From Pyrococcus kukulkanii (GTDB taxonomy: Archaea; Methanobacteriota_B; Thermococci; Thermococcales; Thermococcaceae): a stretch of 64,000 nt of DNA. Shown here in pieces: positions 1 to 11,497 of the stretch; the first letter of the stretch is position 1; each line of letters starts with the position of its first letter. A program made the position numbers and the translations under genes. The DNA lies in the NCBI RefSeq assembly GCF_041647995.1, contig NZ_JARRIB010000001.1, positions 434,001 to 498,000 of the forward strand, given 5' to 3'. The notes below the pieces were generated by a model. That model was not told the DNA's origin. It worked only from the letters and a program-made list of their open reading frames with translations, and did no database searches.

Positions 1-1362
1 CTAGCATGGCCCGCAATAACTGGGAATATCAGCCAAACCCTTCTCAACCTAGTTGATACAATGATAGTCGGCCACGTTAGTGCAATTGCTCTCGGTGCCG
101 TTGGCCTGGGGGGAACGGTTAGTTGGTTTATGTTTCCAATAATGATGGCCGTATCCACAGGAACCCTAGCGGTAGTTGCGAGGAGGGTTGGAGAAGGAAA
201 TTATGAAGAGGCATCGAAGGTCGCGGAACAGAGCATGTACATAGCGTTCATCCTAGGAATTCCCGTAATGCTTTTTGGGATATTCTTCGGGGATGACATA
301 CTCAGGATAATGGGTGCCAAAGGAGAAGTCCTCGAAATAGCATATGCCTACCTTAAAGTGCTCTTTCTGTTTTATCCAATTAGATTCGTTGGCTTTGCAT
401 TCTTTTCCTCTCTGAGGGGGGCCGGGGATACGAAAACGCCAATGCTACTAAATATATTGATGAATGTCATAAACGCCATCCTTGATTATCTCCTGGTGTT
501 TGGAAAGCTAGGCTTCCCCAGGATGGGCCCAGTGGGAGCCGCCTGGGCATCAGGAATAGGAATCACGATCGCATTTCTCGTTGGCCTGTATCTATTTATA
601 GCTCATAAGCTCGTTTTAAAGCCTGTACTGGAGTTGAGGATAAGGTGGGACATAGTAGAGAAGATCCTCAGAATAGGAACACCGACAATGCTGGAAAGAG
701 GCCTTTTTAGCTTTTATAACTTCCTATATATGAGCATAGTTACTAGGTTCGGAAAGATAGCCCTTTCAGCTCACCAAATAGGATTAAGAGTGGAGAGCAT
801 AGCGTACATGCCAGCTTTTGGTTTCAGCATAGCAACATCTGCCCTAGTAGGACAGAGCTTGGGTGCGAAAAAACCCGAACAGGCTGAGAGGGTTGTTAAA
901 GAAGCATTGGTTATGACAACAACCTTCATGAGCGTCATGGCCCTTATACTCACTGTATTCCCAAGGTACCTTGTCGTGCCATTCCTTTCAAGCTCAGATC
1001 CAAATTATGAAGTCGTTAAGAATCTCGCTTCGATATACCTGATAATAGTTGGGATAAGCGAAATTCCACTCGGGGTAACGTTCGTTCTAAGCGGTGCCCT
1101 AAGGGGAGCAGGAGACACTAAAAGCCCCCTCTATGTCACTGCAATCAGCAAGTTACTCTTCAGGATAATTCCATCCTACCTGCTAGGATTTGGATTCGAG
1201 ATTCCAAGCTTTACTATTTGGAAGTTAACTTTCCCTGGATTTACCTTCAAGGGGTTAGGTGTAATAGCGGCATGGGTAGGGATGAGCCTTGAGACGTTTA
1301 TAACCGCAGGGCTCTTCTGGCTAGTGTTCAGAAAAGGCAAGTGGAAGCACATTAAGATTTAG
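1..1362 (+). CDS. MATE family efflux transporter (5' partial)
   Basis: The reading frame is open from the first base, and the first 20 codons (LAWPAITGNISQ...) fit the usual N-terminal helix of the family, so the true start lies outside the window and the ATG at 61 is internal. About 453 residues are visible, with some 12 hydrophobic segments and two copies of the LRGAGDTK signature (near base 412 and 1100), typical of MATE Na+ or H+/drug antiporters with two homologous halves. It acts in the cytoplasmic membrane; the substrate cannot be told. It converges on the HTH regulator on the other strand, overlapping it by 11 bases. Confidence 0.9.
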   Translation, partial: LAWPAITGNISQTLLNLVDTMIVGHVSAIALGAVGLGGTVSWFMFPIMMAVSTGTLAVVARRVGEGNYEEASKVAEQSMYIAFILGIPVMLFGIFFGDDILRIMGAKGEVLEIAYAYLKVLFLFYPIRFVGFAFFSSLRGAGDTKTPMLLNILMNVINAILDYLLVFGKLGFPRMGPVGAAWASGIGITIAFLVGLYLFIAHKLVLKPVLELRIRWDIVEKILRIGTPTMLERGLFSFYNFLYMSIVTRFGKIALSAHQIGLRVESIAYMPAFGFSIATSALVGQSLGAKKPEQAERVVKEALVMTTTFMSVMALILTVFPRYLVVPFLSSSDPNYEVVKNLASIYLIIVGISEIPLGVTFVLSGALRGAGDTKSPLYVTAISKLLFRIIPSYLLGFGFEIPSFTIWKLTFPGFTFKGLGVIAAWVGMSLETFITAGLFWLVFRKGKWKHIKI

Positions 1363-2290
1363 ACTTCAGCTCCTTTATTATTTCGAAGAGCTCGTCAACA
1401 TCCCTAACATCTTCTAACACCCTCTTAGGTATGACAGGAATCCTGCTTATGACTTCAGCCCGAGCATTCTCAAGAACGAACATGCCCTCGCTCTCTATGA
1501 ACTCGGTTATCTGACTCACCAGCTTAGCTCTCTTCAGCGTCGCACTTGTCTTCTTCTCATCTATGCCAGTAAGCAACTTTATCTCCTCATCTTCCTCCTC
1601 TCCCACTGCATTAAATGGAGCTCTCTTGATCTTAATGACATCCATTCCAAGCTTGTGTAGCTCCTCAAATACTTCTTTCTCGAGCTTGCTCTCAGGTTTC
1701 GAGCCTAAGGATACATCCTCAAGCTTTGCCCTTAAGATATCTACTGGCTTAACCAAAGGCTCGTCAAAAATCTCCTCCAGCCTAAGGGCCACTTCAAGGC
1801 TTACGACAGCTTCACCTTTTTCGTACCTCTGCAAGCTCTTCCTTGAGACGCCAACATAAGTAGCGAGCTCCGCAAGGGTATATCCATGCTCCTCCCTAAG
1901 CTTTCTCAACTTTTCCCCATCAATCTTGACGTAAAAACCTCCTCTCTCGGCCATTATAAGAGGGGGCTCTCCCTCCGCGAACAGAGAGTAGAGGGTTCCT
2001 GGGGTTATCGCATAGATGCCGAACCTCTCGTATACAACTCCATCTTCAAGCTCTATATTCTTCGTCTTCAGGCCAACCAAGAGAGGAGACGCCCTGAAAA
2101 GCTTCGCAAGCTTTTTTAAATCCTCGGCCTGCTCCTCCGTGAATTTATCAATATTGGTGAGAGTTTTTATGAAAAGCAGGAGAAGACGCCTAGTAGCAAC
2201 TAGATCAAAGCATCCTCCCCTAAATGTGAGCCTCGCGGTCTCAAATCCAATGCTCTTCAATATCTTCTCAACAACGTTCGCTAGCTCCAT
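1352..2290 (-). CDS. Cro/C1-type HTH transcriptional regulator (archaeal family)
   Basis: About 312 residues. A Cro/C1 helix-turn-helix sits near residues 126-180 (LAELATYVGVSRKSLQRYEKG), behind an N-terminal domain that resembles a nuclease-like fold in this archaeal family, and before a charged C-terminal domain. This matches the widespread euryarchaeal family annotated as putative HTH-type regulatory protein; its target genes are unknown. Start choice: the frame could open at TTG 2308, but a TATA box (TTTATAAA, 2314-2321 on this strand) lies about 25 bases upstream of the ATG at 2290, fitting a leaderless transcript. It converges with the MATE gene. Confidence 0.8.
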   Translation of the reverse strand: MELANVVEKILKSIGFETARLTFRGGCFDLVATRRLLLLFIKTLTNIDKFTEEQAEDLKKLAKLFRASPLLVGLKTKNIELEDGVVYERFGIYAITPGTLYSLFAEGEPPLIMAERGGFYVKIDGEKLRKLREEHGYTLAELATYVGVSRKSLQRYEKGEAVVSLEVALRLEEIFDEPLVKPVDILRAKLEDVSLGSKPESKLEKEVFEELHKLGMDVIKIKRAPFNAVGEEEDEEIKLLTGIDEKKTSATLKRAKLVSQITEFIESEGMFVLENARAEVISRIPVIPKRVLEDVRDVDELFEIIKELKSKS

Positions 2291-2313
2291 CAATTGAATG
2301 TTTGACAAAAAAG

Positions 2314-2321
2314 TTTATAAA
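2314..2321 (-). promoter_or_regulatory. TATA box of the HTH regulator
   Basis: TTTATAAA read on the minus strand, about 24-31 bases before the ATG at 2290. The spacing suggests transcription starts at or next to the start codon (leaderless). Confidence 0.5.
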
Positions 2322-2337
2322 GTTAGCATTTGCCGTT

Positions 2338-2368
2338 CCCTCACACTGCATCATTTTAGTGTGGGTCA
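2338..2368. repeat. Inverted repeat (hairpin) beside a decayed region
   Basis: CCTCACACT and AGTGTGGG are complementary arms around a 10-base loop. It lies between the HTH promoter and the decayed flavoprotein gene. Together with GC-rich sequence at 2388-2540 that has no recognisable coding meaning, it may be the end of an old insertion, but no transposase is visible here. Confidence 0.3.
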
Positions 2369-2387
2369 TCACGGCGATTCTAAGCAT

Positions 2388-2545
2388 TCATGGCAGTAGC
2401 TCAATCCCGTTGCCGGGGGCTTCATTGTCCCACGTTGACGGAAACCCGAGCCCACCAATGCAATGACACACAACGAAACTAATAGAGGTTTCTGCCCCCA
2501 ATAACCTCCCCCTATCAGCCCACCGGCTAGGAGTAGCCTCCCAGG
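2388..2545. other. GC-rich non-coding stretch, possible old mobile-element end
   Basis: This stretch follows directly after the last recognisable flavoprotein codons and is more GC-rich than its surroundings. An open frame crosses it on the minus strand but has no family signature. Thermococcal tnpB-type elements have GC-rich ends of this general style, which is why an element remnant is suspected; this is a guess. Confidence 0.2.
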
Positions 2546-3425
2546 CCCATGGGTAATCAGCCACTCCTCTATCCCTTCGGCGACTCTCTTGTCCTCTCAA
2601 GTAATGGTTGCTCTTATATTCCTGGACCCGAGCCAAAGAATACTCCAGGCTCTTGAGTATCTCCTCATCCACACATGTTATCTCCTAATTGGATTTGTTG
2701 GAATTTGAACTAATAGCGAATGTCAAGTAGTCCGTTGGAACTGTAATTTGATCCTCGGTCTTAATTACACTCCCTTCAACGATCCTTGTCTTGGCAAAAT
2801 TCTACTTCTCTAACACTTTCGTCTCCAATTATCCTCTCAGGGCGGTTACATGTTCAACAAATTTAATAATTCCTTATTAGTCAGCCTTCTAATTCCACCC
2901 TTTGCATAGCTATGCTCCAGTGATCTCCTGCGGGTTACTATAACTTCCCTTGCACCAAAAAGCTGAGCCTGTTTAGTCATACCAACTGCCGCATACCCAG
3001 CTCCAACTACTATTTGTTCTCAAAGTCCGGAAGCTCGCTCTTGGGTAGGTATCCTATTCTTGCCATCTTTATCTTAGCAAGGGCGCCTAAGACATCCATA
3101 AGTCCTGAAAAATCATGCCCAGGAGTCTTAAGGATTCTTGACCTCCATGCACCAGTAGCTATCAGGATCACCTCGAACTCGTTCATGAGCTTCTCCAAGG
3201 AGATGAACTTTTCGGCCCATTCATCACCCAGCTCTTTTCTCGATTTCCTTAGCGCTTCCTTATGAATCTTATTGGAACCCCCACTCCAGAATTCCAAAGG
3301 CAACTGTTCCTCCCGGCTCTGCATATACGTGAACTTCAAAAGCCTTACGCGCTAAATTACAAGCCTCTAAAAGTCCAGCAGATCCTGCACCGATGATCGT
3401 GATCTTAAAAGGTTTAGTTTTCTCT
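2545..3425 (-). pseudogene. Decayed GltA/NfnL-type FAD/NAD(P) oxidoreductase
   Basis: Broken pieces of one flavoprotein can be read in order on the minus strand, in different frames. First an FAD-binding glycine motif (KITIIGAGSAGLLEACNLA, about 3410-3350) and EPGGTVAFGI; then the middle part with LIATGAWRSR (about 3339-3010 is open); then the NAD(P) Rossmann motif VVGAGYAAVGMTKQA (about 3012-2965); then GVFFGSGPG (about 2645-2620) and the tail EDKRVAEGIEEWL (about 2596-2558). Several frameshifts and stops separate them, the N-terminal Fe-S domain is absent, and no intact gene can be built. The intact relative in this window is the NfnL gene at 53960-55390. In a living copy it would oxidise or reduce NAD(P)H. 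Confidence 0.75.
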
Positions 3426-3561
3426 CATCCCTAGGTACAGAACCTCACATTTGCTACCCTTGTCATCTCACATTGATACATCACCAACTTTAAAAACATC
3501 CAAAGTCGGTTTTTGAAAATATTTTAGACAAAGGAGCACTTTTGCCCAGCCAAAACGGAAC

Positions 3562-3569
3562 ACTTTAAT
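3562..3569 (+). promoter_or_regulatory. TATA box of the SDR/membrane protein pair
   Basis: CTTTAATA lies 25-32 bases before the ATG at 3594, with no ribosome binding site between, which fits a leaderless transcript. Confidence 0.45.
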
Positions 3570-3593
3570 AGGAGAAAGCATTAATGAATACGT

Positions 3594-4373
3594 ATGAACG
3601 TCTTAATCACAGCATCATCAAGGGGAATAGGGTTTAACGTTGCAAGGGAGTTACTCAAAAGGGGACATTCCATCGTGATATCCTCCAGCAACATAGATAA
3701 CCTGAAAAAAGCTTATGAAAAACTTAGAGATTTTGGAAATGTTGAATACTTTAAGGCGGACCTCCTCGTTAAAGAGGATCTGAAAAGACTCGTAAAAAAT
3801 GCCTGGGAGGCCCTTGGGAGTATTGATGCCTTAATATGGAATGCCCCAAACGTTAGGTGCGAGCCCTGCATGGTTCATGAAGCTAGGTACATGGACTGGG
3901 CAGAAGCTTCCCTGCTTCATCTTGCCTCCCCAGGATATCTAACAACGCTTTTAGTTCAGGCATGGCTCGAGAAGAAAATGAAAGGGGTAATAATTTATCT
4001 AAGCTCGGCTTCAGTCTTAGAACCAATGCCGCCCCTCTTGCTGGCGGATTCTGCGAGAGCAGGACTGATACAGCTAGCCAAAGGAATATCAAGATCATAT
4101 GGTGGGAGGGGGATAAGGGCGTACACGGTGTTGCTGGGAAGCTTTGACACCCCTGGGGCAAGGGAAAACTTAGCAAAACTTGCCGAAGAGAGGGGCATTG
4201 ATCCAGAAGAATTCTGGAGAAGAGAGGTCGTTGAAAGAACACCCCTTAAGAGAACTGGAAGGTGGGAAGAGTTGGGTGCCCTAATTGACTTCCTTCTGAG
4301 CGAAAATGCCGAGTACATGCTCGGCTCAACGATAGTTTTTGACGGAGCAATGACGAGGGCGGTGAACCTGTGA
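3594..4373 (+). CDS. Short-chain dehydrogenase/reductase with altered active site
   Basis: 259 residues, the usual SDR length. The N-terminus has the cofactor motif TASSRGIG and a Rossmann fold; the catalytic Ser is present in YLSSAS (near residue 139). Where the family has Tyr-x-x-x-Lys, this protein reads ADSARAGL, so the Tyr is replaced by Ala and the Lys by Arg. Such atypical SDRs are known in archaea, and the fold is kept, so this is probably not decay: the C-terminus (GSTIVFDGA) is intact. Substrate unknown. The next gene overlaps its stop by a few bases, so the two are co-transcribed. Confidence 0.8.
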   Translation: MNVLITASSRGIGFNVARELLKRGHSIVISSSNIDNLKKAYEKLRDFGNVEYFKADLLVKEDLKRLVKNAWEALGSIDALIWNAPNVRCEPCMVHEARYMDWAEASLLHLASPGYLTTLLVQAWLEKKMKGVIIYLSSASVLEPMPPLLLADSARAGLIQLAKGISRSYGGRGIRAYTVLLGSFDTPGARENLAKLAEERGIDPEEFWRREVVERTPLKRTGRWEELGALIDFLLSENAEYMLGSTIVFDGAMTRAVNL

Positions 4374-4834
4374 TGTGGGAGAAAATTTTAAGGCCAAAGT
4401 TCCTAGCTAAGAAAGTCAAGGAAGACCCAAACAAGTTCAAATCGATGGGATTTCACGTTATTGAAGTTGTTGGAGAGGGTTATGAGCTTGAAAGTCTCGT
4501 TGAATATTTCATATACTCCACGTTTGGGAAGTACGTGTATATAGTGGAGCACGAAGGCAGGAAATTCCTAGCTAGAGGGGACAAGAAGATAGGAGAAATT
4601 GAGTACCTCGTCAAAGACGAGAAAGGTCTTATGAGGCTCATCCTCAAGGAGGTTAAGAAGAGCACAAAGGCCGCACTGGTCGGGATAACACTAGGGTTTG
4701 CCATGGCGGTTGGAGGGTTAGTTGGCATGTGGAAGCCCGAATTCTCCTTTATTGGAGTTATGTTGGGTGGAGTTCTTGGCTCAGCAATAATGAAGATCTT
4801 CGAATACTACATCATTGGCTACTGTAAGACTTGA
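4370..4834 (+). CDS. Conserved hypothetical membrane protein
   Basis: About 154 residues, not assigned to a named family. Residues 1-100 are soluble and charged; two hydrophobic helices follow near residues 103-120 and 128-145, containing [11 protein letters not shown] between them. The start is GTG 4370 or ATG 4373; both overlap the SDR stop codon, showing translational coupling. It converges on moaC with a 23-base overlap. Confidence 0.6.
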
Positions 4835-5288
4835 CCTTTTCAACAACCCTTACATCCTCAATCCTCGTGTAGGGGTATTGGCCCCTCTCATCCTTCTCTA
4901 CAGCCTTCACCATGTCCCATATCGTTAGTAGTGCCACTGTAGCACCGGTCAAAGCCTCCATCTCAACGCCAGTCTTGTAGTAAGCCCTAACCTCGCATGT
5001 TACCTCAATGTAATCTTCGCCGAACTCGAAGGTTATGTCAACCCCGGTGAGGGGGATTGGATGGCAGAGGGGGATTAGCTCTGGAGTCCTCTTTACGGCT
5101 AAAATTCCAGCTATCTGGGCTGCGGCGAGGACGTTCCCCTTTTCTATTTTCCCTTCCCTGATTAGCTTTACGGTTTCAGGCCTCAACCTTATCCTGCCCT
5201 TTGCTACTGCCCTTCTATAGACGACATCCTTGTGGCCTATCTCGACCATCTTTACACCTTTTTCATCGACGTGTGTTAGCCCCTTCAT
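4812..5288 (-). CDS. moaC: MoaC, cyclic pyranopterin monophosphate synthase
   Basis: 158 residues. MoaC acts after MoaA in molybdenum/tungsten cofactor synthesis, converting the radical-SAM product into cyclic pyranopterin monophosphate. Family motifs are clear: [22 protein letters not shown], and [21 protein letters not shown] with the catalytic region. Pyrococcus uses the pterin for tungsten enzymes such as aldehyde ferredoxin oxidoreductases. The frame is open further upstream, but the family N-terminus ([11 protein letters not shown]) begins at the ATG at 5288. It is divergent from the ATPase gene at 5347, the two promoters sharing about 58 bases. Confidence 0.93.
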
Positions 5289-5346
5289 GTGCTGAAGATG
5301 GAAAAGGGGATAAATAAGTTTGATGACGAATTGAAGGGAAAGGAAA

Positions 5347-6249
5347 ATGTACCTTAGCAAGCTCATAAGCGTTAACGAATTCAGGGGAATAAAAAGGCTT
5401 GCGAGAGAAATAGAGTTTCCAAAGATAACCGTTCTCATAGGGAGGAATAACTCAGGAAAAACAGCCCTACTCGAGGCCCTCTTTATATTGACATCCCATG
5501 ATAAAAGGGATTTTCTTAAGCCCCGTCAATCTGCACTTTCCGAATTTTTCCCTGTCGGATATTCCAAGTTGATTTACTTCTACAGTGGAAAAGCCGAAAT
5601 TTTAGGAATCATCAAGGATAAGGAAGTAAAAGTTAGTATATTCGAAGATAACCGAATAGAGCCACTATCCTTAGATAACCCACCCGAAACCCTTTATATA
5701 GATGCCCAGGGAATCCTACTCTCAGAATTGGGAAGATACCTTAGGGAAAAAGAGAATACCATAGTCAAGGAAGGGCTTCATGTCAAAGTAGCCAAAACGA
5801 TAAGCAAGTGTGTTGACGAGGATTATACCGAGCTAGTTCTAAAGCAGGACGGTTGGTACGTGAGAAGAGAAGACGCTCGCTACGTTAGGGTTGAAGACCT
5901 TGGAAGTGGAGCAAAGAAAGCAATAAAAATAATGCTTGCCGCAGAGTTGCTAAAACCCAAACTCATCCTATGGGATGATTTCGAAGTTGGTATGCATCCC
6001 TCCCTAATCAGAAAAACATTAGAATGGCTTACCCAAGGAGACTGGCAGGCCGTTATCTCAACTCATAGTATAGATGTTCTCTATCATCTCGCGGATCTCA
6101 GTGAGGAGATTGAAGTTGACGGAAAGGTGCTCCTCTTGAGAAGAGAAAACGACGTTCTGTTACACAAAGAGATAACATTCGATGACCTAGAGACTCTAAT
6201 TGATTCGAATGTGGATCCGAGATTGCTTGTAGCTCAACTAAAACTCTGA
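5347..6249 (+). CDS. OLD/RecF-like ABC-type ATPase
   Basis: 300 residues. It has the N-terminus typical of AAA_15/AAA_21 (SMC/RecF-like) ATPases, including the Walker A motif GRNNSGKT at residues 32-39. Further on are a signature-like LGSGAKKA, a Walker B LILWDDFE (DDFE where most have DEPE) and a switch His in STHSIDVL. There is no long coiled coil and no fused nuclease domain; the separate gene 14 bases downstream encodes a TOPRIM-like protein, so the two look like a split OLD-type machine. A purine-rich AAGGGAAAGGA precedes the ATG. The role is unknown; defence and DNA repair are both possible. Confidence 0.8.
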
Positions 6250-6262
6250 GCAGGGAGAAGCA

Positions 6263-6862
6263 ATGAAAGTTATTACAACGGAAACAGGCAAAGAGAAAAT
6301 AGTTGCGATTGCATTAACTGGAGACGGCAGGACTGAGCTAAAAGTTCTTGAGGCAATAGCGCAAAGATATAACGGAAAAGAAAGAGCAATGCTCTTCCCA
6401 AAATCGCCCCTGGGAGGTACCTCAAAGGGAACTAGCATTATTAAGACCGCTGAGTTAGTTGCTAAAATAACAGGGATTACCACAGTGCTCATCATGATAG
6501 ACAGGGAACACGTCCAAGATATCGAAGGTCCTCTTAGAGAAACACTAAAAGACGCTGAAATAGGCCCAGGAAATCCCATTATTGCAAGATCGAAAAACAT
6601 GACAATATTGGTTGTTATCCTGGGGAAGAAAAAAGCTATCGAAGAAAACTTAGCAGAGTTAATAAACCTTGAAGCTGGAAAGCAAGTTGTAGATCCAAAG
6701 CTCCCAGTTAAAGAACTGAAATCTCAAATAAAGTATATTCTAAAAACGGAATTCGGAAAGCCCAAAAGCATAAAGAAGTTTCTTGAAAGGTGCAAAATGG
6801 AGAACATAGAGAGGGCATTCGATGGATTAGCTAGAGCACTAAAGCTCCTCGAAGATTTTTAA
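6263..6862 (+). CDS. TOPRIM-like protein, partner of the upstream ATPase
   Basis: 199 residues. The N-terminal part looks like a TOPRIM-type nuclease fold: an acidic loop [14 protein letters not shown] near residue 18 and a second acidic motif LIMIDREHV near residue 77, the spacing expected for TOPRIM motifs I and II. It resembles archaeal proteins of the DUF3226/DUF4276 type. The C-terminal 70 residues are lysine-rich and helical. It lies 13 bases after the ATPase gene and is presumably co-transcribed. The family assignment is from motif shape only. Confidence 0.55.
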
Positions 6863-6884
6863 ACCCTTTCTTCTCACACATCAC

Positions 6885-8159
6885 GTGCTCCTGCATATAG
6901 GTATTGACGATACAGATTCACCGAACGGGATGTGCACAACCTATCTTGGAGCGCTCCTCTATAGGGAGCTCTCGAGGTTAGGAGAGCCCTTAGATCTCCC
7001 CAGGCTTATCAGACTAAACCCTAACATTCCTTACAAGACGAGGGGAAATGGTGCCGTTGCCCTAACCTTCGAGATTGAAGAGGAGTACATTGAAGAAGCA
7101 AAAACTCTCGTAATAGCGAAGGTTAAAGAGCTCGCCGATTTTTCTCATGAAAACACAAATCCTGGGATAGCCTTCCTTAAAGGTAAAGTGCCCCAGGAAC
7201 TAACAGAATTCTCGTTAAGAGCATTGAGGGAGCACGTTACAATAGAGGAAGCAGAAAAAGTAGCAAAAAAAATTGGAGCTGAAATAGTGAAGTTCAAGCT
7301 CGGCAGGGGAATAATTGGGGCCCTCGCAGCAATTGGCTACCCCCTTGAGAGATATACATATGAGCTCCTCGCATACAGGGACCCCAGAAACAGGGAGAAG
7401 GAAAGAAAAGTTGATAGGGATTCAGTATTCGAGATGGACAGAAGATTTTACCCGTTCACTTATGACAACGTCGATCCCTACAAGGGAACCGTGCTGATAA
7501 CTCCCCACGGGAAGGATCCAGTTCTCGTTGGAATAAGGGGCATTGACGAAGGAAAGGTTCTGCAGGCCTTTGAAGAAGTGAAAATAGAGGAGAAAGTTGT
7601 GATGTTTCAGCTCTACAAGACAAACCAGAGTACCGACAACCACCTAGTCCCAAAGAAGATCAAAGATGTAAAGCTCTACGACAGCGTGATAATCCGAGGA
7701 AAAGTGGCAAGCAGGCACTGGGAAAAAGGAAGGCACGTGTTCTTCGAACTCGAGGATGAAACCGGGAAAATTAGAGTGGCAGCATTTGAGCCAACGAAGA
7801 AGTTCAGGAACTATGTAAGGAAGCTCCTCCCTGGGGACGAGATAATAGTTGCCGGGGGCGTTAAGGAGCATGAAGGAGTTTTAACTGTAAACCTCGAGAA
7901 GTTCTATCCCATAAGGCTTGTCCCGAGGATAGAGCTGAAGAAGCCCAAATGCCCCAAATGTGGAGGAACTATGAAAAGCAAAGGTAACTACCTTAAGTGC
8001 AAGCATTGTGGCTTTAAGATGCCCAAGATATTAATTCCCGTGGAAAAGCCGAGAGATTTAAAGAGAAAGATATATGAAGTTCCTCCAGATGCAAGGAAGC
8101 ATCTCTCAAGACCTCTCGTGTTGCCCGGCGGGGAGGATAGCATTTTAACTGTTCTCTGA
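6885..8159 (+). CDS. tiaS: TiaS, tRNA-Ile2 2-agmatinylcytidine synthetase
   Basis: 424 residues from a GTG start. TiaS couples ATP and agmatine to C34 of tRNA-Ile2 (anticodon CAU) so that it reads AUA as isoleucine. The catalytic N-terminus has [16 protein letters not shown]; further on are [15 protein letters not shown], an OB-fold ([25 protein letters not shown]) and a C-terminal zinc ribbon CPKCGG...CKHCG. An AT-rich TTTTTAAACC precedes it inside the end of the previous gene. It is essential in archaea that decode AUA this way. Confidence 0.95.
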
Positions 8160-8197
8160 TCAAAAACCTTTTATCGAATTCTCCCCACTTCTGGCCG

Positions 8198-9679
8198 ATG
8201 GCTAAATTAAGGAGATTCATCAACATCTCAGATGACATATTCGTAATAAGGAACCTAATAGGAGCGATCCTTCAAGGTGTTGGATTAGCGTATTTAGTGC
8301 CTGTCCTTATCGTGTGGTTTTATCCAGATGAGATAAAGCTCTCGGTGTACTTTGCAATCCCTGGGGTTGCGTGTATACTCCTGGGATACTACCTCTCCCG
8401 CCACATAGAGCAAGTTGAAGACGTAAACTTGAGGCAGGCCATGATGGCTTCAGCCTTCATCTGGCTATTTGCTTCATTTGTAAGTGTCGTTCCTTTTATG
8501 GCCATAGCGAAGATGAGTTTCATAGATTCCTACTTCGAAACCATGAGCGCTTGGACGGGTACGGGGCTAACAATGATGAGCCACCTTGAAAGTTACCCAA
8601 AGATCTTACTCTTCTGGAGAGCGTGGATGCAGTGGTTAGGAGGAATAGGAATAGTCTTGGTTGCCCTGACGGTTCTAATAAGACCCGGAGTCGCTGCCGC
8701 AAGGCTTTATAGGGCAGAGGCAAGGAGTGAGAGGATTTTGCCGAACTTCGTCAACACTGCTAAGATAATCGTGCAGATTTACATGTTGCTAACTATTCTG
8801 GGGATCTACCTGTATTATATAAATGGGATGAGCCTATTCGATGCCGTAATACACTCAATGACGGGCCTTGGAACAGGTGGTATGAGTAGCCACGACCTAA
8901 GCATAGGATACTTCCACTCCCTAGCCATAGAAACAATCACAGTTTTCCTAATGATCTTGGGCGCTACGAATTTTACTGTCCACTACAGGATGTTCGTTAA
9001 CAGATCCCTGAAAGAGTTCTTTAGGGACATTCAGGTTAAGACGATGATAATATTCCTCGCACTAATAATTCCCCTGATGACACTCTCACTGGTCAGGTTT
9101 GGCCATGCTGGACCTATAAGGGCTTTAAGGGAGTCAATATTTCATGCTGTCTCAGCAATTACTTGTACGGGATTTAGTATTTCAGATCTATCCAAGTACC
9201 CGGAGACCGACAAAGTCCTGCTGTCACTTTTAATGGTCATGGGGGGAAGCGCCGGAAGTACGTCGGGAGGAATAAAGCTGATAAGGATAGCCCTAACATT
9301 TGAGAGCCTTAAGTGGACAATAGAACAAGCGATATTGCCAAAAGGTGCCATAATAAGAAAGAAAGTTGCAAACTATGAATTTTCAGAGGAGGAAATTCAG
9401 GAGGTTCTTGGCTTTACAATGACATATTTTGCGTTCTTACTTACAGGGGCCATGTACATGATGCTCAGACTTGGTGCTAAGTTTGCCGATGCTTTGTTCG
9501 AGAGCGCCTCAGCGATAGGAAACGTTGGATTGAGTGTTGGGATAACATCACCAGGACTCCCCCCTGATGTGAAAATCGTGCTAACACTTTTAATGTGGAT
9601 AGGAAGGCTTGAGATATTCCCAACCTTAGTGTTCCTGGTAGGTGTTGCGATGATGCTTCCCAGGAGGGCGGAGAAGTGA
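8198..9679 (+). CDS. trkH: TrkH/KtrB-type potassium transporter subunit
   Basis: 493 residues, a membrane protein with about 10-12 helices and the four selectivity-filter repeats: SAWTGTGLTMMSH, SMTGLGTGGMS, AITCTGFSISDLS and SAIGNVGLSVG. In this family it moves K+ (with Na+ or H+) and is gated by a TrkA-like cytoplasmic subunit, which is not encoded nearby. The stop codon overlaps the GTG start of the next gene (GTGA), suggesting co-transcription with the ABC genes. Confidence 0.92.
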   Translation: MAKLRRFINISDDIFVIRNLIGAILQGVGLAYLVPVLIVWFYPDEIKLSVYFAIPGVACILLGYYLSRHIEQVEDVNLRQAMMASAFIWLFASFVSVVPFMAIAKMSFIDSYFETMSAWTGTGLTMMSHLESYPKILLFWRAWMQWLGGIGIVLVALTVLIRPGVAAARLYRAEARSERILPNFVNTAKIIVQIYMLLTILGIYLYYINGMSLFDAVIHSMTGLGTGGMSSHDLSIGYFHSLAIETITVFLMILGATNFTVHYRMFVNRSLKEFFRDIQVKTMIIFLALIIPLMTLSLVRFGHAGPIRALRESIFHAVSAITCTGFSISDLSKYPETDKVLLSLLMVMGGSAGSTSGGIKLIRIALTFESLKWTIEQAILPKGAIIRKKVANYEFSEEEIQEVLGFTMTYFAFLLTGAMYMMLRLGAKFADALFESASAIGNVGLSVGITSPGLPPDVKIVLTLLMWIGRLEIFPTLVFLVGVAMMLPRRAEK

Positions 9680-10530
9680 ACATCATTGAAGTGGAAAATG
9701 TGAGCTTTAGATATCGAGGCTCTCCAAAATATTCCCTACGGGATATAACACTCTCGATAAAAGATGGAGAATTCATTGGAATCATTGGGAGTAGTGGGAG
9801 TGGAAAATCAACGTTTTGTTTAACTTTAAATGGTATAATTCCTCATTCAATCCAGGGAGAATTCGAGGGAAATGTTATTGTCGACGGAATGAATACTCGG
9901 GAGCATTCAGTTGCAGAATTATCGACAAAGGTAGGCTTGGTTTTCCAGAATCCTGATTCCCAGATATTCAACATGACAGTTCTTGAAGAGGTGGCTTTCG
10001 CCTTGGAAAATCTTGGAATTGAGAGGGAAGAAATGTGGAGAAGAATAAGGTGGGCTCTTAAGCTCGTTGGGTTATGGAACAAAAGGGAAGAGTTTCCCCC
10101 AAATCTAAGTGGTGGGGAAAAGCAGAGACTTGCGATTGCAAGTGTTTTGGTGATGAAACCTAGGGTTCTAGTTCTTGATGAACCTACTTCGCAACTCGAC
10201 CCAGGGGGAAAAAGAAGTGTGTTAAGCCTAGTTAATTTACTCAATAAAGAAGAGAAAATGACGATAGTGCTCGTTGAGCACAATCCAGAGTTCTTACTAG
10301 AGAATGCGGACAGAATATTCGTGTTTGAGAAAGGTATGGTGGTAATGGAAGGTAAACCCGAAGAGATCTTTGAGGACGTTGAGGCTCTTGAGAGGATTGG
10401 CGTTAGAGTGCCCAGTCGGGTTAAAATAGGGTATGAACTTAAGAAGAGAGGGCTTAGCGATAAGGCTGTACTTAAAATAAACGAAATCAGGAGGATCCTG
10501 TATGAAAGTCCCCTGGAGAGGACTGAGTAA
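9676..10530 (+). CDS. ABC transporter ATPase, ECF (CbiO/EcfA)-like
   Basis: 284 residues from a GTG start overlapping the TrkH stop. Walker A is GSSGSGKST, the signature is LSGGEKQR, Walker B is LVLDEPTSQLD, and there is a Q-loop QNPDSQIFNMTVLEEVAF typical of energy-coupling-factor ATPases. The C-terminal end overlaps the next permease by 29 bases. The combination with DppB/DppC-like permeases is unusual, since those normally use DppD/DppF ATPases. Confidence 0.85.
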   Translation: MNIIEVENVSFRYRGSPKYSLRDITLSIKDGEFIGIIGSSGSGKSTFCLTLNGIIPHSIQGEFEGNVIVDGMNTREHSVAELSTKVGLVFQNPDSQIFNMTVLEEVAFALENLGIEREEMWRRIRWALKLVGLWNKREEFPPNLSGGEKQRLAIASVLVMKPRVLVLDEPTSQLDPGGKRSVLSLVNLLNKEEKMTIVLVEHNPEFLLENADRIFVFEKGMVVMEGKPEEIFEDVEALERIGVRVPSRVKIGYELKKRGLSDKAVLKINEIRRILYESPLERTE

Positions 10531-11497
10531 AATCATGGGAATATATCTCGTGGCAGTGCTAGTGACAATAATAATCGCCGGAGCTGCCGGAGCAAAGTTA
10601 GCAAAAAATTACGCTAGCGAGGCCCTCGGCTATATCAAGGCAACAAATCCAGAATTCTACAATACCCTCAAAGAAAACGCTACCAAAATGGGGATCTCTG
10701 TTGAAGAGTATTATTATAGGCTTGTCCTTTCCAGAGTCTCAAAAAGCGATAACGTGCTGTCAATTGGAATAGGAATGTTAAAGAAGAGCAGAGAGTACCT
10801 CCATAACACTCCAAACCTGAACATAGGAGAAGCAGTCAAGGTCACGATCATTATAATCAGCATTTCCCTAATTCTAATTGTCCTCTCAGGCGTTTATATT
10901 GGGCTTAAATTTAGGGGGAGTAAGAGCATTGATATTATTTCGAGATTTTTCGTTGGCATTCCTTCCTGGTGGCTTGGAACGATTTTTATAATAATCCTGG
11001 CAGTGAAATTGGATTTAATTCCACTCGGAAATGCGAAAATATCTCCTTCATACTATATTTTTGCAACTCTAGTCCTAGTATTTATCCACACTTGGGAAAT
11101 TGCCAGCTACGTATCCCACGAATCTATAAAGGAATTAAAGCAGCCCTACATAAATGCCGAAAAGGCTAAGGGGGTACCAGAGAATATCATCTTATGGAGG
11201 CACATCCTTAAGAATATATCAATAGCACTCTCCTCTATTACCTTCCAGAAATTTTCAGATATCTTTATCGATTTCATAGCAGTAGACGTTCTTTTTGGGT
11301 TGGGAGGTTTAGGTTCTCTTTTAAAGCGGAGTTTTATCCGAGAGATAGATCCTCCCTATGGGATTGTCGTCCAGTTTAATTACCATCTATTTTTCGTAGT
11401 CACGTTTATCATGATCCTCCTCTTCATGGCGTTCTCCATGGGGATAGAGGTGATAAAAGGAATCCTGGACCCCAGGGTGAGCACCAATGAAAGGTAA
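10502..11497 (+). CDS. ABC permease, DppB-like with a long outer segment
   Basis: 331 residues. After the first membrane helix (residues 10-30) comes an about 80-residue hydrophilic segment, then five helices. The EAA-type coupling loop is visible (INAEKAKGVPENIILWRHILKN), as in DppB/OppB permeases. AGGAGGATCC sits before the ATG. The long outer segment replaces the short loop of ordinary DppB. It overlaps the ATPase gene upstream and the DppC-like gene downstream, forming one transcription unit. No substrate-binding protein is encoded in the operon. Confidence 0.75.
   Translation: MKVPWRGLSKIMGIYLVAVLVTIIIAGAAGAKLAKNYASEALGYIKATNPEFYNTLKENATKMGISVEEYYYRLVLSRVSKSDNVLSIGIGMLKKSREYLHNTPNLNIGEAVKVTIIIISISLILIVLSGVYIGLKFRGSKSIDIISRFFVGIPSWWLGTIFIIILAVKLDLIPLGNAKISPSYYIFATLVLVFIHTWEIASYVSHESIKELKQPYINAEKAKGVPENIILWRHILKNISIALSSITFQKFSDIFIDFIAVDVLFGLGGLGSLLKRSFIREIDPPYGIVVQFNYHLFFVVTFIMILLFMAFSMGIEVIKGILDPRVSTNER

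Follow-up and report, generated by a model that had tools for sequence, protein, structure and literature searches.

A split ABC-ATPase and TOPRIM-like gene pair in Pyrococcus kukulkanii, a probable ATPase-gated defence nuclease

A paired ATPase and TOPRIM-like gene between moaC and tiaS

In a 64,000-nucleotide stretch of the Pyrococcus kukulkanii genome (hereafter the window), a small RecF/OLD-type ABC ATPase gene is followed directly by the gene for a TOPRIM-like protein that matches no family in the libraries tried. By analogy with PARIS and Gabija, the pair most likely encodes an ATPase-gated, metal-dependent nuclease that would act in defence against mobile elements. We put the probability of this reading, a split two-gene ABC-ATPase/TOPRIM system in which the ATPase gates a two-metal nuclease acting against invaders, at about 0.58. 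We read the pair as a new split ATPase/TOPRIM subtype, which would work like PARIS, AbiL or PDC-M38 and belongs to none of them by sequence.

The features of the locus are as follows.

5289..5346, plus strand: intergenic region between the divergent moaC and the ATPase gene, a putative promoter region (sequence)
5347..6249, plus strand: RecF/OLD-type ABC ATPase, 300 aa, proposed sensor or gate subunit (Pfam, PADLOC, model, Foldseek)
5440..5463, plus strand: Walker A, GRNNSGKT, residues 32–39 (alignment of 23 ATPases)
5962..5985, plus strand: Walker B, LILWDDFE, residues 206–213 (same alignment)
6058..6069, plus strand: H-loop, STHS, residues 238–241 (same alignment)
6205..6246, plus strand: conserved C-terminal tail with a D-P-R motif (same alignment)
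6263..6862, plus strand: TOPRIM-like partner, 199 aa, proposed nuclease, outside all library families (model, Foldseek)
6317..6337, plus strand: partner motif I, TGDGRTE, residues 19–25; family pattern G(D/N)Gxx(E/D) (alignments A7 and A9)
6494..6511, plus strand: partner motif II, MIDREH, residues 78–83 (alignment of 12 relatives)
6623..6646, plus strand: third acidic motif of the partner (IEE), residues 121–128 (alignment of 12 relatives)
6885..8159, plus strand: tiaS, tRNA(Ile2) agmatidine synthetase, a neighbour (NCBIfam TiaS, 6.6e-238)

Both open reading frames (5347–6249 and 6263–6862) are intact, and 13 bases (gcagggagaagca, 6250–6262) separate the ATPase stop from the partner start. 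An earlier note on this DNA had reported these positions, this spacing and the motifs GRNNSGKT, TGDGRTE and IMIDRE, all of which we recovered. The host genome comprises 2.05 Mb in 9 contigs. Upstream, the intergenic region contains an AT-rich, TATA-like stretch (ataaataa) and a ribosome-binding-like stretch (GGGAAAGG) 5' of the ATG, and most of it is retained in the deletion scars of two relatives (G028 and G026).

Pfam and NCBIfam confirmed the identities of the flanking genes given in the earlier note: moaC lies upstream and divergent, and tiaS starts 22 bases 3' of the partner gene on the same strand. tiaS is possibly co-transcribed with the pair, but it is a neighbour outside the pair's system, since it occurs with or without the pair. 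The genes around the pair are moaC, tiaS and trkH, and no recognised defence gene was found among the neighbouring genes of the locus, in line with the earlier remark that the pair lies outside a known defence island. In G030, the gap between moaC and tiaS holds a CRISPR-like array (L076:5948-6591), in which a roughly 30-nt unit (GTTCCAATAAGACTAAAAAAGAATTGAAAG) is present ten times at a spacing of 66–74 bases.

The ATPase subunit

The window ATPase passes the Pfam cut-offs for AAA_21 (66.3 bits, 6.3e-18) and AAA_15 (57.6 bits, 2.2e-15). In PADLOC it draws more than 120 overlapping matches, the best being AriA, AbiLi (1.3e-18) and PDC-M38A (9.7e-18). A better-scoring relative, the ATPase of G108, matches AbiLi at 5.2e-27 over residues 7–353 of 361 and PDC-M38A over its full length at 1.1e-23. 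The model (pLDDT 80.4) is closest in Foldseek to PtuA and to the SMC and Rad50 heads.

The window ATPase contains the Walker A and Walker B motifs and the H-loop. Its Walker B sequence, LWDD, carries Asp at the position of the catalytic Glu usual in ABC ATPases, a substitution common to nearly all relatives. Each lineage carries a C-terminal D-x-R tail (DPR, DVR or DLRG), which also occurs in the ATPases paired with DUF3226 proteins and in those of a related set of pairs that we call type 2. The D-P-R tail is a possible docking site for the TOPRIM partner.

The partner protein and its acidic residues

The partner has no family match in Pfam, NCBIfam, PADLOC or PHROGs, including DUF4435, DUF4276, RloB and DUF3226. 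Weak Pfam matches (Complex1_51K at 0.0056, RhoGEF67_u2, BLUF) and a match to a designed PDB protein (0.0037) were incoherent among relatives and were dismissed as chance. The partner model, built on an alignment of five sequences, has a pLDDT of 79.9 and a pTM of 0.79. Its best PDB match is PH0156 (2p62; Foldseek E 1.2e-3, probability 0.99, TM 0.47), followed by the OLD TOPRIM domain 6njx (E 0.041, probability 0.66). Among viral models, the best TM belongs to a RloB-like protein (0.50, E 0.046), and the other matches are poor. DUF3226 and RloB are families that we take to be TOPRIM-like. A TOPRIM-like fold is therefore likely, at moderate confidence, since three different TOPRIM-type families lead the fold matches, each match alone not being strong.

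The conserved acidic pattern of the partner family is G(D/N)Gxx(E/D), DxEH and IE(E/D), and its order matches that of EGxTD, RDxD and ELE in DUF3226. D80 and E82 are invariant in all 12 aligned relatives, as is E127; position 128 is E or D, and position 25 is acidic in all relatives aligned. The TOPRIM superfamily is marked by a Rossmann-like fold, a Glu in motif I and DxD in motif II; TOPRIM proteins are among the top fold matches of the partner, which has D or N at the Glu position and DxE where DxD is expected. Motif I is Asp or Asn, never Glu, with Asn in G424, G425, G434 and G436. The acidic centre is moderately supported, and catalysis by the partner seems plausible from these residues, less than assured because motif I carries Asp or Asn instead of Glu; the Asn of several relatives may weaken it.

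Aligning the partner family to the DUF3226 profile with hhalign was negative (probability 3%), the PDC-M38B profile was matched by one partner relative only (E 0.04), and no RloB sequence for comparison was found in 151 archaeal genomes. Membership of DUF3226 or DUF4276, raised earlier, is not supported.

Distribution and gene order

Of 115 genomes searched in the phylum, six carry the partner, and two of these belong to one species; strong ATPase homologues occur in exactly these six genomes, directly adjacent. Counted by species, the carriers make up 5 of about 93 Thermococcales. Outside the phylum, the partner is present in Methanococci (G337 and G424, a label inferred from gene content), in G297 and in two groups, one of G197, G338 and G399 and the other of G280, G425, G433, G434 and G436. 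In all, the pair recurs with one gene order in Methanococci and no fewer than three further archaeal families. Wherever the DNA could be read, the gene immediately 5' of the partner is that of the ATPase; this leaves aside G338 (contig end) and G280 C2 and G150 (fragments), where the ATPase is unreadable. The pair is not a chance association: within the phylum, strong ATPase homologues and the partner are restricted to the same genomes and adjacent, and their order recurs across archaeal families.

The earlier note had posed tandem conservation and patchiness as alternatives, and the pair displays both. It had also named a partner lacking a TOPRIM fold, or genes failing to co-occur, as grounds for abandoning the idea; the predicted fold is TOPRIM-like at moderate confidence, and the genes co-occur in other genomes. 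Searches of plasmid, phage and viral-contig collections found no relatives of the pair. Bacteria were covered by one genome-contig scan with a single query sequence, sensitive to close relatives only.

Gain, loss and selection

In most Thermococcales lacking the pair, a GNAT gene lies directly 5' of tiaS. In G108 the pair sits exactly in this GNAT–tiaS gap, the partner stop overlapping the tiaS start; in G052 it occupies the gap with one more gene; in G042 it directly follows the GNAT gene, tiaS being at another location; and in Pyrococcus it lies between moaC and tiaS. These shared surroundings point to an old locus. The GNAT gene upstream in G108 and G042 was considered as a third component and rejected, as it stands beside tiaS in most pair-less genomes.

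In three other Pyrococcus species, this position 5' of tiaS is marked by a deletion scar (the label Pyrococcus for the relatives G025–G032 is suggested by the gene order they share with the window). In G028 and G026 the final partner codons survive (...LKLLEDF-stop), and G032 retains the ATPase N-terminus (IMPIKALMGIHEFRGIKR) followed by the partner C-terminus with a stop. A reversed-sequence control for the remnant search gave zero matches, and no convincing remnant was found beside tiaS in 60 further Thermococcales genomes. A recent insertion in the window's genome was rejected for Pyrococcus, given that G028, G026 and G032 keep remnants at the same place. DNA identity between window positions 1–10887 and L072 (G028) is about 84% left of the deletion point and about 95% right of it, and this jump suggests a recombination boundary at the pair.

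Decay is seen elsewhere as well. Frameshifts interrupt the partner gene in G066, G337 and G399, and G297 combines a truncated ATPase with a partner gene that is largely left but contains a stop. Some of these genomes are drafts and may contain sequencing errors. The G425 ATPase has one stop. In the near-complete genome G337 (L057:6700-7396), the frameshifted partner stands beside an intact ATPase, reflecting either decay or sequencing error. Intact pairs are under purifying selection, since dN/dS is about 0.08–0.18 where computed: for the ATPase, about 0.08 (G042/G066), 0.10 (G337/G424) and 0.12 (G197/G399), and for the partner, 0.18 (5' part) and 0.08 (G433/G434), rough values with dS near saturation in several comparisons.

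In the ATPase tree, Methanococci fall among Thermococcus-type sequences and Pyrococcus lies outside, and monophyly of the Thermococcales ATPases is rejected (p-AU 0.0097), in a tree with long branches. This conflict implies transfer, and the most economical history is an early presence of the pair, followed by many losses and one or more transfers between phyla.

Comparison with known split and fused systems

The earlier note had proposed a split pair, possibly of the OLD type. This held for the architecture, which is OLD/PARIS-like, and failed for membership of OLD, GajA or PARIS, as the partner matches no profile. As in PARIS (AriA and AriB, OLD class 4), ATPase and TOPRIM are split over adjacent genes. 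PARIS has been defined by AAA_15 of at least 32 bits or AAA_21 of at least 27 bits, with an adjacent or fused DUF4435 of at least 27 bits (PMC9122126). The window ATPase, at 57.6 and 66.3 bits, lies above both ATPase thresholds, but a DUF4435 partner is absent, with zero matches for the window protein or for 8 of 8 relatives. An assignment to PARIS through the PADLOC AriA match was rejected as resting on a generic profile: the match is unspecific because two of the AriA models are close in length to Pfam AAA_15 and AAA_21, the families that define PARIS (PMC9122126). OLD class 1 and GajA combine the same two domains, whereas here they are unfused, in two open reading frames with a stop between. 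Unlike Gabija (GajAB), the pair has no UvrD/PcrA-like helicase (GajB) next door, the neighbours being moaC, tiaS and trkH. The partner also differs from those of Septu and retrons in lacking an HNH (PtuB) or RT profile match; the PtuA fold matches of the ATPase arise because the ATPase fold is common to both.

The resemblance to AbiL (AbiLi with AbiLii/RloB) lies in the full-length AbiLi match of the G108 ATPase (5.2e-27), in the AbiLi-type window ATPase (1.3e-18) and in the RloB-like model that gave the partner its best viral TM. In gene sizes and gene order, AbiL resembles the pair. The window partner, however, has no match to RloB (PF13707) or to an AbiLii profile.

The neighbouring type, the PADLOC candidate PDC-M38 or ATPase+DUF3226, has an AAA_21-type ATPase (317–363 aa) directly upstream of a TOPRIM-like protein of about 240 aa, and PH0156, the best structural match of the window partner, is the DUF3226 partner in this type. 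The window ATPase is of the PDC-M38A type (9.7e-18), but its partner is neither DUF3226 nor PDC-M38B by sequence, with neither Pfam detection nor a profile–profile match. The two types further differ in partner motifs (EGxTD/RDxD in DUF3226 versus G(D/N)Gxx(E/D)/DxEH), in ATPase tails (DLRG versus DPR...L(K/E)(I/L)) and in the tree, where their ATPases form separate clades. A search of the available literature for DUF3226 or PDC-M38 found nothing relevant.

Proposed mechanism and alternatives

By analogy with PARIS and Gabija, ATP would cause the small RecF-like ATPase to dimerise or oligomerise, and the ATPase would bind the TOPRIM-like protein of about 200 aa and hold back its activity. In response to a foreign trigger, which could be nucleic acid, a viral protein or a viral state, the ATPase would change and free or align the TOPRIM subunit; acting as a two-metal nuclease, this subunit would then cut nucleic acid (DNA or tRNA), and cleavage would stop the invader or the infected cell. 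PARIS joins an ATPase and a TOPRIM protein, is triggered and cleaves tRNA (PMC9122126, PMC12409363), and Gabija is an ATP-regulated TOPRIM nuclease (PMC10568477). Complex formation, gating and nuclease activity are extrapolated from these systems; the defence role we infer from the architecture and the gain and loss behaviour, since the pattern of gain, loss and decay agrees better with a conflict system than with a maintenance function.

Chromosomal maintenance, by a RecF/RecR-like or Cran1-like module of ATPase and TOPRIM in DNA repair or the cell cycle, is unlikely. The Rad50 and SMC heads among the ATPase fold matches, the purifying selection and the stable chromosomal position beside housekeeping genes would suit it, and Cran1, an archaeal OLD-family clade, is an ATPase-nickase essential for the cell cycle rather than an antiviral protein (PMC12796447). 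But the Cran1 clade is vertically conserved and tracks the species tree of its own order, whereas the pair's ATPase conflicts with such a tree across phyla, and the pair is present in so few of the Thermococcales species, with deletion scars in close relatives and frameshifted copies elsewhere. A repair role is unlikely because the pair has been repeatedly lost. Frequent decay of a two-gene operon is also what a toxin–antitoxin-like or selfish module would show, in which the small protein is toxic, the ATPase restrains it and the two are kept by addiction; the Pfam description of AAA_21 mentions the AbiEii toxin, and the intact ATPase beside a frameshifted partner in G337 is the direction of decay that such a pair allows. 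This seems quite improbable to us: either PARIS gene can be deleted without toxicity, which excluded a toxin–antitoxin system there (PMC9122126), and in G297 it is the ATPase that is cut down with most of the partner gene left, although that partner also has a stop.

The motif I changes from D to N in four relatives, and DxE in place of DxD, raise the question of whether the partner is a catalytically inactive pseudo-TOPRIM that serves as an adaptor between the ATPase and something else. The invariance of D80, E82 and E127 and the always acidic position 25 argue otherwise, and we think this rather unlikely. Very improbable is a tRNA-directed nuclease functionally tied to tiaS, beside which the pair sits in three genera. 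The overlap with tiaS in G108, the 22-base distance in the window and the cutting of tRNA by the AriB TOPRIM (PMC12409363) would fit, but nearly all pair-less genomes have tiaS, the pair lies away from it in G042, G066, Methanococci and other families, and one old locus accounts better for the shared place.

A broader form of the defence reading remains tentative and rather doubtful. The pair might represent a new class of split, OLD-like immune systems in archaea, transferred between archaeal phyla. In it, an ATPase would gate a nuclease from a TOPRIM-like family not recognised before, whose metal centre is altered (G(D/N)Gxx(E/D), DxEH) and which differs from AriB, RloB, DUF4276 and DUF3226.

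PARIS (class 4), the split ATPase/TOPRIM immune system that has been characterised, comes from bacteria. A recent survey confines class 4 to bacteria (PMC12796447); an older profile search had placed PARIS in bacterial and archaeal genomes (PMC9122126). The split architecture is already known, and the same genome holds sister ATPase+DUF3226 pairs. What is new is a split pair, neither PARIS nor DUF3226, over several archaeal lineages, with a partner family missed by the libraries tried, defence-finding ones included. The pair is small (about 500 aa in total) and presumably thermostable, offering material for structural and biochemical work, and the natural deletion scars in close Pyrococcus relatives allow strains with and without it to be compared.

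Related pairs

The window's genome (G000) also carries an ATPase+DUF3226 pair at C1:628 kb (L170, 627500-630500), whose partner matches 2p62 at 4e-45 as well as Pfam DUF3226. A second, more divergent pair of this kind lies at C2:39-42 kb (L178:810-2531) and forms a long branch in the ATPase tree. In several Thermococcales (L170, L171, L175, L179, L180), a transporter permease gene precedes the ATPase+DUF3226 pair and an ABC-transporter ATPase gene follows it, so that the pair stands inside a transporter operon; the permease looks to be of the tungstate/molybdate type.

Three type-2 pairs were seen: in G114 (L043:5917-7673), G436 (L186:1200-2902) and G280 C17 (L187:3306-5068). Their partners are homologous to the partner family (hhalign E 7e-12, probability 97.5) and their ATPases form a sister clade, but the partners are longer (225–241 aa), with an extra N-terminal part. 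The G114 pair adjoins ParA-like genes, possibly on a mobile element.
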